The position numbers were made by a program, and so were the translations under genes. From an uncultured Muribaculaceae bacterium (GTDB lineage Bacteria; Bacteroidota; Bacteroidia; Bacteroidales; Muribaculaceae): DNA of 50,945 nt. Position 1 is the stretch's first letter. The number at the start of each line of letters is the position of its first letter. The stretch covers positions 1 to 50,945 of the forward strand of contig CAJOFH010000015.1 in NCBI GenBank assembly GCA_905233845.1, in the 5' to 3' direction. Positions 46,506 through 49,195 of this stretch are shown piece after piece. The notes beneath the pieces are model-generated. The model saw only the letters and a list, made by a program, of their open reading frames with translations, did not search any database and was not told the DNA's origin.

Positions 46506-47180
46506 ATGAAAGATAACCAATCACGACGAGATTTCATTAAACGCCTTGCTGCCCTAGTGGCAGCAGGATTGGTGTCGCCATCTATTTTCTTCGGAGTAAA
46601 AGAAGGTTTCGAGGCCAATGCTGCACCTTCGGGCAATGGCTCATGCTCATCGTCTTACAGCTGCACTGGTGGCTCGGGAAAATGTGGCTCATCCTACAAT
46701 TGTAGTGGTCAAGGCGCTAATGGCAATGGAAAATGCGGCTCATCCTATGACTGCTCGGGTGGTGGTGGAAAGTGCGGCTCATCCTACAACTGTAGCGGAC
46801 AGGGAGCCAATGGAAAAGGCAGATGCGGCTCGTCGTACGACTGCTCGGGTGGCGGCGGCAAGTGCGGCTCGTCCTACAACTGCGCTGGCCAAGGCACAGG
46901 CCAAGACAACAGCTATGGCAGCAGCAAGTGTGGCTCATCTTATGACTGCTCGGGCGGCGGTGGACGATGTGGTTCATCTTACAACTGCGCTGGTCAAGGA
47001 GCTGCCGGTAAAGGCAAGTGTGGATCGTCGTATGACTGCGCCGGTGGTGGCGGCAAATGTGGCTCGTCCTACAACTGCGCTGGCCAGGGAGCCGAGGGCA
47101 AAGGTAAGTGTGGGTCATCATACGATTGCGCTGGTGGTGGCGGCAAGTGCGGCTCATCCTATAACTGCAGTGGGCAATGA
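46506..47180 (+). CDS. Repeat-type Cys-rich precursor peptide with twin-arginine leader
   Basis: This 224-aa protein opens with SRRDFIKRLAALVAAGLV, a twin-arginine (Tat) signal. From residue 47 it is made of twelve C-x5-C units: one CSSSYSC, then eleven CGSSY(N/D)C units in strict N, D, N, D alternation, with Gly/Ala/Ser/Lys linkers (short GGGGK after D units, longer GQG...GK after N units). It has 24 Cys in total, and every unit has a Tyr before the last variable residue. Its stop overlaps the start of a radical SAM enzyme by 4 nt, so it is very likely the substrate. I know no exact family for it. Thioether or Tyr-based crosslinks are possible products. Confidence 0.85.
   Translation: MKDNQSRRDFIKRLAALVAAGLVSPSIFFGVKEGFEANAAPSGNGSCSSSYSCTGGSGKCGSSYNCSGQGANGNGKCGSSYDCSGGGGKCGSSYNCSGQGANGKGRCGSSYDCSGGGGKCGSSYNCAGQGTGQDNSYGSSKCGSSYDCSGGGGRCGSSYNCAGQGAAGKGKCGSSYDCAGGGGKCGSSYNCAGQGAEGKGKCGSSYDCAGGGGKCGSSYNCSGQ
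46644..47177 (+). repeat. Coding repeat array of the precursor peptide
   Basis: Twelve units of TGY-GGC-TCN-TCN-TAY-RAY-TGY type, arranged as N/D dimers of roughly 25 to 30 codons per pair. Codon choice differs between copies (TCA/TCG, TAC/TAT), so the array has been under protein-level selection and is not a fresh duplication. Confidence 0.85.
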
Positions 47181-48460
47181 CACAGCAATGCCATCAATTG
47201 CCATCATGTGTCGAAGTTTTTGAGCGAAACAGCAAATTCGTATACATCAATCCCCAAGTCCCAGCATGGATTGTCACTAATGACTTGGGTAATATGATTA
47301 TGTCGCTGTTTGACGGCGACAATAGCATTGACGACATTGTCGACACTGTCACACTGGCCATAGGTGATGACAAACGTCAACAAATCACTGATTTTTGCAA
47401 TCATGTGCTCACTTCTGGAGTACTTGGCAACATCAAACATGAGGAGCATGTGCGCGACACAAGTCTGCACAGCGTGCATCTGTCGCTCTCGAGCCAGTGC
47501 AACCTGCACTGCAAGTACTGCTATGCCGCTCAGCGTGTCGAGAGCAAATTTCCTCGTCTTTCACTCGAGGAATATAAGCAAGTGATTGATGACTTATGTA
47601 ACATTTCAAGCAACATCACTTTCACCATCACTGGCGGTGAGCCATTGCTCAACCCACTGTGGCAGCCCATCGCTCAGCATATCAAAACCAAAGGCTGCAC
47701 TCTCCTACTCCTCTCTAACGGCCTACTTATCAACGACAAAAACATTGACTTCATAAAGCGGCACTTCGACCTTGTGACGCTGAGCCTCGACGGTCCCACT
47801 CGCGAGAGCCATCAACTGACACGCGGTGACAACTACGAAGCCGTAATGCGGGCAGTGAAGCTACTTGAGGAACATAATGTTGAGCACACCATTTCGATGA
47901 CCGTCACTCGCCTCAACATTGACCAAGTGGAGGCGATGGCAAGCAAGTTTGGAGCGAAGTTAAACTTTGCTCCACTGTTCCCTGTGAGCGACCTTGCAAA
48001 TGATGAACTGTCAATAACAGGCGAGCAATACTATCAAGCTTTGTCACAGGCCTTTGGCGTGGAACCGCTGGGATATTGTGAAGCGTCACTCGACCTCTCA
48101 AAGCAAGTAAAGAGCCGCAAGTGCGCCATTGGCGACAATGAAATCAGCATATCGCCCACTGGCGACGTATACCCATGCCAACTGCTGCACATGGAGCAGT
48201 TCCTGGCTGGCAACGTGCACGAGCATAACATCATCGACATTTACCACAACAGCGACGCATTGAAACGCTGCGCCAACCTTGACGTTGACCACATTGAGAA
48301 ATGCCACGATTGCGCCATCCGCTACATCTGCGGAGGTTCTTGCCGTGCACGAGGGTTCTACGAGACAGGTAACATCGCCAGCACTGGCGACTTCTGCCAA
48401 TACGAATTCTCGGCCTTCCTCGACGGCATCACCAAGATTTACTCGAGTAATGCGATTTAA
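47177..48460 (+). CDS. PqqD-domain radical SAM/SPASM peptide maturase
   Basis: This 427-aa enzyme has three parts. Residues about 8-90 resemble PqqD, the precursor-recognition fold (VFERNSKFVYINPQVPAWI, LFDGDNSIDDIVDTV). Residues about 98-300 are radical SAM with Cys108-x3-Cys112-x2-Cys115 (CNLHCKYCY) and FTITGGEPLLNP. Residues 316-407 form a SPASM domain with Cys at 316, 334, 376, 379, 385, 389 and 407 (including CHDCAIRYICGGSC), enough for two auxiliary [4Fe-4S] clusters. Such enzymes install carbon-sulfur, carbon-carbon or carbon-oxygen links in peptides. The 4-nt overlap with the repeat-peptide gene identifies its substrate. No peptidase or transporter gene follows; the Tat leader could provide export. 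Confidence 0.92.
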   Translation: MTQQCHQLPSCVEVFERNSKFVYINPQVPAWIVTNDLGNMIMSLFDGDNSIDDIVDTVTLAIGDDKRQQITDFCNHVLTSGVLGNIKHEEHVRDTSLHSVHLSLSSQCNLHCKYCYAAQRVESKFPRLSLEEYKQVIDDLCNISSNITFTITGGEPLLNPLWQPIAQHIKTKGCTLLLLSNGLLINDKNIDFIKRHFDLVTLSLDGPTRESHQLTRGDNYEAVMRAVKLLEEHNVEHTISMTVTRLNIDQVEAMASKFGAKLNFAPLFPVSDLANDELSITGEQYYQALSQAFGVEPLGYCEASLDLSKQVKSRKCAIGDNEISISPTGDVYPCQLLHMEQFLAGNVHEHNIIDIYHNSDALKRCANLDVDHIEKCHDCAIRYICGGSCRARGFYETGNIASTGDFCQYEFSAFLDGITKIYSSNAI

Positions 48461-48540
48461 AGCATAATCGAGCCAAGTTTTATAAGATTAACGTGAGCTT
48501 GACGGAAATAAAGCGTTGAATTTCAGTCGCTCCACCTGTT

Positions 48541-48656
48541 TGGGACACTTTTTGAAAAAAAACTTTTTACACCGCGCCGGGTTGAGTCTCACGCAAATAT
48601 CGCAAAAAGCGCGAATTGTTTATCTCGCAAAATAAATCAAACAACTGGAACAACTT
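48541..48656. repeat. Long repeat unit A, copy 1
   Basis: A 116-nt unit starting TGGGACACTTTTTG and ending GGAACAACTT is nearly identical to 48953-49068 (same length, a few substitutions). The region 48461-48845 otherwise holds no gene that I can support. Confidence 0.85.
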
Positions 48657-48754
48657 AAACCCAAATCGGTCATTAGGCGACGGAAAGTTATAATTTTTAT
48701 GTCTATTTATGCTATAATAGTTTTGTTTTGGCATCTTGACTTTGATAGTCTTTT

Positions 48755-48772
48755 GACGTAGCCCGCTACGTC
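48755..48772. terminator. Small hairpin in the repeat region
   Basis: GACGTAG and CTACGTC pair around CCCG (7 bp). T runs are weak on both sides. It could end the peptide-operon transcript but the distance from the stop codon is about 290 nt. Confidence 0.25.
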
Positions 48773-48845
48773 TTCAATTCTCTCAAAATCAATCTACTCA
48801 AAACAAATTCTATTCTAACATAAATCCTAATGACCGAATTGGGTT

Positions 48846-49195
48846 GAACACAACTTGCACAACAAAATGTGGATTGTGTGGGACAGTTTTTGGAAAAAAC
48901 TTTTTTTACACCGCGCCGGCGGTATAATACATTAACAGCTCCCAGGAGCGTGTGGGACACTTTTTGAAAAAAAACTTTTTGTACCGCGCCAGGTTGAGTC
49001 TCACGCAAATATCGCAAAAAGCGCGAATTGTTTATCTCGCTAAATAAATCAAACAACCGGAACAACTTGAACACAACTTGCACAACAAAATGTGGGTTGT
49101 GTGGGACAGTTTTGGAAAAAAACTTTTTTTTACACCGCGCCGGCGGTGTAATACATTAACAGCTCCCAGGAGCGTGTGGGACACTTTTTGAAAAA
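48846..49195. repeat. Repeat block B1-A2-B2 (223-nt period)
   Basis: Unit B (126-127 nt, starting GAACACAACTTGC and ending TTTTTGAAAAA) occurs at 48846-48971 and 49069-49195, with unit A copy 2 (48953-49068) between them. The ends of B and the starts of A share TGGGACACTTTTTGAAAAA. Each unit carries a core of GTGTGGGACA, a T/A tract and ACCGCGCC. Confidence 0.85.

Follow-up and report, generated by a model that had tools for sequence, protein, structure and literature searches.

Radical S-adenosylmethionine (SAM) enzymes that act on ribosomally synthesized and post-translationally modified peptides (RiPPs) have been described with several kinds of substrate. Streptosactin has two unnested rings in a 14-residue product and comes with a protease and regulators (PMC8172795). 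In PapB-type systems one enzyme forms several thioethers in a repeated motif (PMC9413430), and TvgB, the enzyme of poly-cyclopropylglycine, is a single radical SAM enzyme acting on several copies of a short repeat (PMC9062424). In CteB a peptidyl Cys is bound at the open site of one auxiliary cluster; the auxiliary clusters of SuiB, PqqE and anSME are fully ligated (PMC8172795, PMC8326336). Bufferins and other RiPPs modified by MNIO enzymes are first modified and then exported by general secretion, are often Cys-rich and in some cases have long precursors (PMC12452194, PMC12636315). Here we describe a pair of overlapping genes in a stretch of 50,945 nucleotides from an uncultured Muribaculaceae bacterium (positions 1 to 50,945 of contig CAJOFH010000015.1, assembly GCA_905233845.1; hereafter the window). 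One gene codes for a repeat protein with twelve C-x5-C units behind a twin-arginine translocation (Tat) leader, and the other for a radical SAM/SPASM enzyme. With a probability of about 0.6, we read the pair as a two-gene RiPP-like maturation system, in which the Cys residues would be stapled by thioethers in the cytosol and one whole protein would then be exported through Tat.

The repeat protein gene comes first, and its stop codon and the start codon of the enzyme share the letters ATGA, a 4-nt overlap of two genes on the forward strand (Table 1). A preliminary description of this DNA had reported this overlap and the twelve units with their 24 Cys, and our coordinates and counts agree with it; no Cys was found outside the units in any of 14 precursors, that of the window included. 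It had also reported a strict alternation of CGSSYNC and CGSSYDC, which held for eleven units (six of the former, five of the latter) but not for the first, CSSSYSC. Relatives do not show the N/D alternation, which rules it out as a definition of the unit. The spacers in the window alternate between 6 residues (SGGGGK-like) and 10 residues (SGQGANGKGK-like), one being of 15, and this 6/10 alternation is present in most relatives, the exceptions being locus L016, the C-terminal end of L042, and L015, where it is 6/12.

We compared the units position by position in 14 readable full-length precursors, 12 from the family and 2 from green sulfur bacteria, which together hold 154 units. The precursors of L034 and L036-L039 do not differ from those of L014, L011, L010, L013 and L012 and were counted once, and L035 (six units visible) and L041 (tail only) end at contig ends and stand outside the unit counts. 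L009, which was present in an earlier unit table, where 11 of its units are readable and one more has a Cys that is not, was omitted from this one for its unreadable bases. Only C1, C7 and Gly9 were invariant, each in 154 of 154 units. Position 2 was Gly in 144 and Ser in 10; position 3 was Ser (143), Ile (4), Ala (3), Thr (2) or Gly (2); position 4 was Ser (117), Ala (32) or Gly (5); position 5 was Tyr (137), Phe (7), Trp (6) or Ala (4); position 6 was variable, with Gly in 9 units; and position 8 was Ala (78), Ser (55), Thr (14), Gly (4) or Pro (3). Exactly 12 units were found in all 12 readable full-length family precursors, even in L042 with its different order of C-terminal spacers, and this number is constant although the enzymes of the 11 relatives share 45-79% identity with that of the window. 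The two green sulfur precursors have 6 units of CGSAF[GE]C (L015, genome G749) and 4 units of CGIGAGC (L016, genome G793). Their leaders are very similar, their enzymes are 88% identical and their unit sequences are wholly different, which makes them a natural experiment on substrate tolerance.

At the DNA level the array behaves otherwise than a recent duplication. Tandem repeat analysis gave two arrays with a 90-nt period and 83 and 80% matches, and the 12 units of the window have 12 distinct DNA spellings that encode 3 peptides (mean proportions of synonymous and nonsynonymous differences between units, 0.79 and 0.06, respectively). Because the spellings differ and synonymous differences far exceed nonsynonymous ones, we conclude that the units are kept alike by selection on the protein and not by recent copying; chance and a young tandem DNA repeat are ruled out. 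Between the window and L014, the nonsynonymous and synonymous divergences (dN and dS) were 0.10 and 1.54 for the core and 0.20 and 2.02 for the enzyme, both dS values being near saturation. These estimates indicate that purifying selection acts on the core and on the enzyme.

The two genes are also inherited, and lost, together. The enzyme is present once in its own genome, where four other matches are only 21-28% identical and partial. It was found in 5 of 198 genomes of the family at E <= 1e-40, and a profile of the repeat protein found those same 5 in a sample of 198 drawn in the same way. In the genus, the enzyme was present in 12 of 101 genomes (6 of the 48 most complete) and the repeat protein in 11, with both in 10. 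The three exceptions are one contig edge and two decayed remnants: in G977 the contig begins with codons for CGSSYSCAGS and a stop directly ahead of the enzyme, which we read as the tail of a precursor; in G1055 (L043) the enzyme is reduced to a C-terminal piece of 133 aa, about its last third, beside an esterase gene; and in G1044 (L053), which gave no enzyme match in the genus search, there is a leader that lacks the usual start codon, diverges right after CSSS and is followed by no unit array. The remnants in G1055 and G1044 are two different products of decay adjoining the same esterase gene.

A sample of the order gave the enzyme in 1 of 393 genomes (its own), and the phylum sample in 5 of 395 at E <= 1e-30, namely its own genome, G749 and G793 (41% identical), and G623 and G841 (28%); at most four candidates were scored per genome in these two samples, which may have let a weak member escape, and the genome samples overlap and are uneven in completeness. 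The repeat profile found 2 of the 395 (its own genome and G749) and missed the divergent protein of G793, which is visible as an open reading frame (ORF) and is matched once the profile is widened to include it. Among 98 genomes of the green sulfur order, both the enzyme and the repeat protein were in the same two, G749 and G793. We take these two as green sulfur bacteria because they carry the FMO protein gene, for which G000, G623 and 14 control genomes gave no match. Five named records also carry the pair, two from Muribaculaceae (goat duodenum and buffalo omasum) and three from Prevotellaceae with the isolate label RUG, which we take to be a rumen label; five of the genomes have the same precursors as these records. 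The pair thus occurs in some Prevotella-related gut bacteria and in a small number of green sulfur bacteria.

In none of the genomes searched did an intact repeat protein occur without the enzyme; all that stood alone was the leader remnant of G1044. The expectation that the unit travels with the enzyme was therefore borne out for the pair, although the unit is not always C-G-S-S-Y-N/D-C. A precursor beside its modifying enzyme, conserved as a pair, is what marks a RiPP locus, and it is what was found here. The adjacency could in principle be an accident, with the enzyme acting elsewhere and the repeat protein an unmodified envelope protein; given that the two genes are present together, absent together and kept side by side in two bacterial classes, we hold this to be most improbable.

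The twin-arginine leader seen in the preliminary description is supported by TIGR01409, which was over its cut-off for the window precursor (24.4 versus 16.7 bits) and also for that of L008. The twin arginine itself, as S/T-R-R-x-F, was present in 14 of 14 full-length precursors, and an AxA site in 13. The Tat pathway exports folded proteins. TatC was found in 13 of 15 genomes tested, a set with and without the pair that included G000, and the two misses were in genomes that are 85% (G001) and 59% (G179) complete.

For the enzyme, PF04055 and PF13186 were over their cut-offs in the window and matched all ten sequences of alignment A2 (E <= 0.1), in agreement with the radical SAM and SPASM parts of the architecture proposed earlier; its PqqD part fared less well, as discussed below. 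Cys residues were aligned in 18 sequences, near relatives among them. The C108-x3-C112-x2-C115 motif was kept in all 17 that cover that stretch, window included, and of the seven SPASM Cys six were kept in 18 of 18 and C385 in 17, being unreadable in one. These seven fit the two auxiliary-cluster sites that had been predicted, the assignment of individual Cys to the clusters being presumptive. No further Cys lies between C316 and C334 in any of the 18, so that the fourth Cys of cluster I is absent. The best solved relative was CteB (5wgg, E 3.6e-28), aligned over its full length including the N-terminal domain, from profile position 7 on, and the second-best was an anaerobic sulfatase maturase (E 4.9e-24); in the alignment the maturase has additional Cys between the positions of C316 and C334, and CteB has none. 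The absent fourth Cys would thus be as in CteB, which forms thioethers. No curated NCBIfam model was over its cut-off among the best 25 of 96 families matched by the window enzyme, nor among the best 25 of 82 for L014 and of 85 for L015, so no model among the matches listed already covers the pair.

Table 1. Features of the gene pair and its upstream region, in positions of the window
Feature	Positions	Strand	Basis
Putative precursor, a repeat protein of 224 aa with 24 Cys in twelve C-x5-C units	46506..47180	+	ORF list, unit scan
Twin-arginine leader MKDNQSRRDFIKRLAALVAAGLVSPSIFFGVKEGFEANA; possible signal peptidase site between ANA and AP, after residue 39 (putative cleavage)	46506..46622	+	TIGR01409
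Unit array, C-[GS]-[STAGI]-[SAG]-[YFWA]-x-C then x-G (pattern from 14 proteins)	46644..47168	+	Unit tables
Radical SAM/SPASM enzyme (putative maturase), 427 aa	47177..48460	+	PF04055 and PF13186 over cut-off
Putative N-terminal precursor-binding (RRE/PqqD-like) domain, about residues 7-81	47195..47419	+	Weak PqqD matches, CteB alignment, weak structure model
Radical SAM cluster motif C108-x3-C112-x2-C115	47498..47521	+	Alignment
SPASM region, C316, C334, C376, C379, C385, C389, C407	48122..48397	+	Alignment
Promoter-like site TTG-N20-TAnnTTTGC, 31 nt upstream of the start codon	46443..46474	+	Motif match

From these features we infer a course of events in the cell, with its reaction, acceptor, export, cleavage and function. 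The N-terminal precursor-binding domain of the enzyme, judged by homology, would hold the leader of the fresh repeat protein in the cytosol. At each C-x5-C unit the radical SAM centre would abstract a hydrogen from a carbon within the unit or next to it, and a Cys thiolate on the open site of auxiliary cluster I would attack that carbon to give a thioether staple. Stapling would be repeated along the array, involving up to 24 Cys, and the compact modified protein would leave through Tat by means of its leader and TatC, the leader being cut near the ANA-AP junction. The product would be the whole array, a protein rich in glycine, about 185 residues long and carrying exactly 12 units, which may stay in the envelope or be shed. 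That the leader is a Tat signal on a radical SAM RiPP, that thioether stapling in the cytosol gives the glycine-rich chain the compactness needed for Tat and so serves as its folding step, and that the product is a stapled protein of 12 units and fixed length, taken together, we put a little short of even odds.

Which atom would accept the thiol can be narrowed from the unit table. A fixed acceptor at position 2, 3, 4, 6, 8 or 9 could only be the alpha-carbon, giving a sactionine, because Gly occurs at each of these positions. Position 5 always has a beta-carbon, and its Cys-x3 spacing is as in the substrates of PapB. One acceptor position for all units would thus leave alpha-carbon chemistry or position 5, on the assumption that one rule governs all units. 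The Cys-Tyr link raised earlier is disfavoured as a general rule because position 5 can be Phe, Trp or Ala, the Tyr being replaced in 17 units. With 150 of 154 units aromatic at position 5 and a glycine-rich array, a carbon-carbon cyclophane of the GrrM type, linking that residue to position 7 or to another residue, would also be conceivable, and the GrrM/OscB model was among the matches of the L014 enzyme. However, its 69.5 bits are far from the cut-off of 310, and all four units of L016 lack an aromatic residue under an enzyme so close to that of L015. Triceptide and GrrM cores have an aromatic residue in every motif, whereas Ala stands there in 4 of the 154 units, all in L016, and the GrrM/OscB model was absent from the best 25 NCBIfam matches of the window enzyme. 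We consider a cyclophane quite unlikely.

Thioether stapling also has to be weighed against a smaller role for the enzyme. The 24 Cys in fixed pairs could belong to a secreted thiol-rich protein that binds metal or forms disulfides, the enzyme making a small change without crosslinks (Cys or Ser to formylglycine, or epimerization) or loading metal; the sulfatase maturase as second-best solved relative, and bufferins, signal-peptide RiPPs that chelate copper (PMC12452194), lend this some weight. But sulfatase maturases have fully Cys-ligated auxiliary clusters (PMC8326336), a pattern not seen in this enzyme, which gave 108.1 bits with the maturase model TIGR03942 (cut-off 349.45). Nor is any metal-transport gene conserved beside the pair across lineages, though CorA precedes it in L010-L013. 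On balance we regard this explanation as unlikely.

The neighbourhood bears on the fate of the product as well. In 11 stretches of 5 to 19 kb, compared by their ORFs of at least 90 aa, only the pair was common across lineages, and no protease or ABC-transporter gene was conserved beside it. The substrate had been called multi-core, and near-identical units, preceded by Lys or Arg in 138 of 154 cases, might be cut by a trypsin-like protease into small crosslinked peptides and released as bacteriocins. Yet the number of units is fixed at 12 in the family, the comparison yielded neither a conserved protease nor a conserved transporter, nor any other ORF common to all lineages, and a folded cargo is what Tat carries; release as many peptides is therefore very unlikely. 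For the whole stapled protein, we think a structural or metal-binding role in the envelope somewhat likelier than that of a small antibiotic, because its length is fixed and no such protease or ABC-transporter gene is conserved.

Several points weigh against this reading of the pair as a stapling and export system, the first being that the modification itself is something we infer. The PqqD match in the window (E 0.034, 14.9 bits) was under its cut-off of 23.4, and PqqD reached E <= 0.1 in only seven of the ten members of alignment A2, at best 0.0073. Both structure predictions were poor, with a mean predicted local distance difference test (pLDDT) score of 48.5 for the repeat protein and 50 for the enzyme, in whose weak model the N-terminal order is strand-strand-helices, and thus they give no fold support to the array or to cluster ligation. 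On the side of export, Pfam TAT_signal was under its cut-off in the window (15.6 versus 22.7 bits), the green sulfur precursors (L015, L016) matched no NCBIfam model at E 0.001, no AxA site was found in L008, and TatC is permissive and not specific, because it is present also in genomes without the pair. The enzyme would have to be tolerant, because the cores of L015 and L016 differ completely under such similar enzymes. The distribution is patchy, with 12 of 101 genomes in the genus, and the link between enzyme and precursor holds only within the close family, because the 1.5-kb flanks of the 28% identical enzymes of G623 and G841 hold no frame with at least three C-x5-C units. Finally, a small immunity gene could be missed, because the neighbourhood comparison took only ORFs of at least 90 aa.

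If the reading is true, radical SAM crosslinking of ribosomal peptides would meet Tat export of folded proteins, two subjects usually kept apart, and this minimal two-gene system would raise the question of whether staples set by an enzyme can stand in for folding as the requirement for passage through Tat. It would also provide a natural stapled scaffold of 12 units and fixed length, a protein-scale stapled material, and an enzyme family handling units as different as CGSSYEC, CGSAFGC and CGIGAGC, which would be useful for peptide stapling.

Around the pair, the genes differ between lineages. The window and L014 share, on one side of the pair, an esterase (PF00756) and the next gene, which we read as truA. 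L010-L013 have the CorA gene upstream and other genes downstream; a ROK kinase lies upstream in L028 and a Mur ligase in L030, and a neighbour in L031 is tentatively Sel1-like. The promoter-like site upstream of the repeat protein follows what we take to be the Bacteroidota promoter consensus, and the motif has 4 matches in the window where shuffles give 0.26. Downstream of the enzyme, the intergenic region at 48538-49195 contains direct repeats of 127 nt at 94%, 78 nt at 96% and 64 nt at 95%.

More distant enzymes were also encountered. L017 (G841) and L018 (G623) were rejected as members, being 28% identical and having no frame with three C-x5-C units; their radical SAM/SPASM-like enzymes exceed 500 aa and lie near an apparent ABC transporter gene, in L017 also near a 285-aa protein of no assigned kind, and they may be another peptide-modifying system. 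A search of plasmids gave no match at E 1e-20, and phage records gave two partial matches at 28-30% identity. Of 27 loci in IMG/VR only L054 was close (49% over 197 residues), and the other 26, at 21-35%, were taken as general radical SAM enzymes. The relative in L054:1-605 (IMGVR_UViG_3300007909_000023) is cut by the contig end and adjoins phage genes, including that of a major head protein (phrog_212); this copy is either phage-borne or host DNA beside a prophage.

Compared with known systems, the locus resembles SCIFF/CteB ranthipeptide maturation in its putative N-terminal RRE region, radical SAM domain, SPASM domain without the fourth cluster-I Cys, and Cys-rich substrate. It differs in its score with the SCIFF model TIGR03974 (95.8 bits for the window, cut-off 425) and in its substrate, 224 aa with a Tat leader and C-x5-C units instead of a short six-Cys peptide. 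With GrrM/OscB (TIGR04261) it shares, going by the model name, a radical SAM/SPASM enzyme and a glycine-rich repeat protein; the score far under the cut-off and a unit without a fixed aromatic residue set it apart. The best-scoring curated model was that of the StsB sactipeptide maturases (NF045574, residues 7-400), which we take to be related to GggB of streptosactin. The scores of 152.6 (window), 157.2 (L014) and 170.9 bits (L015) are under its cut-off of 625, and streptosactin is a 14-residue product with a protease and regulators (PMC8172795), although a sactipeptide bond from S to the alpha-carbon would be compatible with the Gly-bearing unit positions. For L015, the AlbA model (NF012164) gave 81 bits against 850. 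The spacing from Cys1 to position 5 is the same as in PapB-type systems, from which the pair differs by its score (NF047865, 93.1 bits for the window, cut-off 340) and in that none of the 154 units has an acidic residue (Asp or Glu) at position 5.

Other systems are further away. The MNIO RiPPs have another enzyme family and Sec or lipoprotein signals, and the words Tat, twin and twin-arginine gave no occurrence in the texts of PMC12452194 and PMC12636315. TvgB acts on a TVGG repeat, a motif without Cys, in a five-gene cluster with transporter and peptidase genes (PMC9062424). Bacteroidales RiPPs are surveyed in PMC10352776, whose Muribaculaceae table row could not be tied to the pair. CX5C gave no match as a literature term, and no Tat-exported radical SAM RiPP appeared in the titles and abstract openings found, which is weak evidence of absence as they leave most of the subscription literature uncovered. 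Because each curated cut-off was missed (that of GrrM being compared for L014 only), we do not file the pair under SCIFF, PapB, StsB or GrrM. What sets it apart from the known thioether-forming radical SAM RiPPs is the Tat leader, the fixed array on the scale of a protein and the C-x5-C-x-G unit, and, if our reading is true, it would be the first case known to us of Tat export in the thioether-forming radical SAM families.

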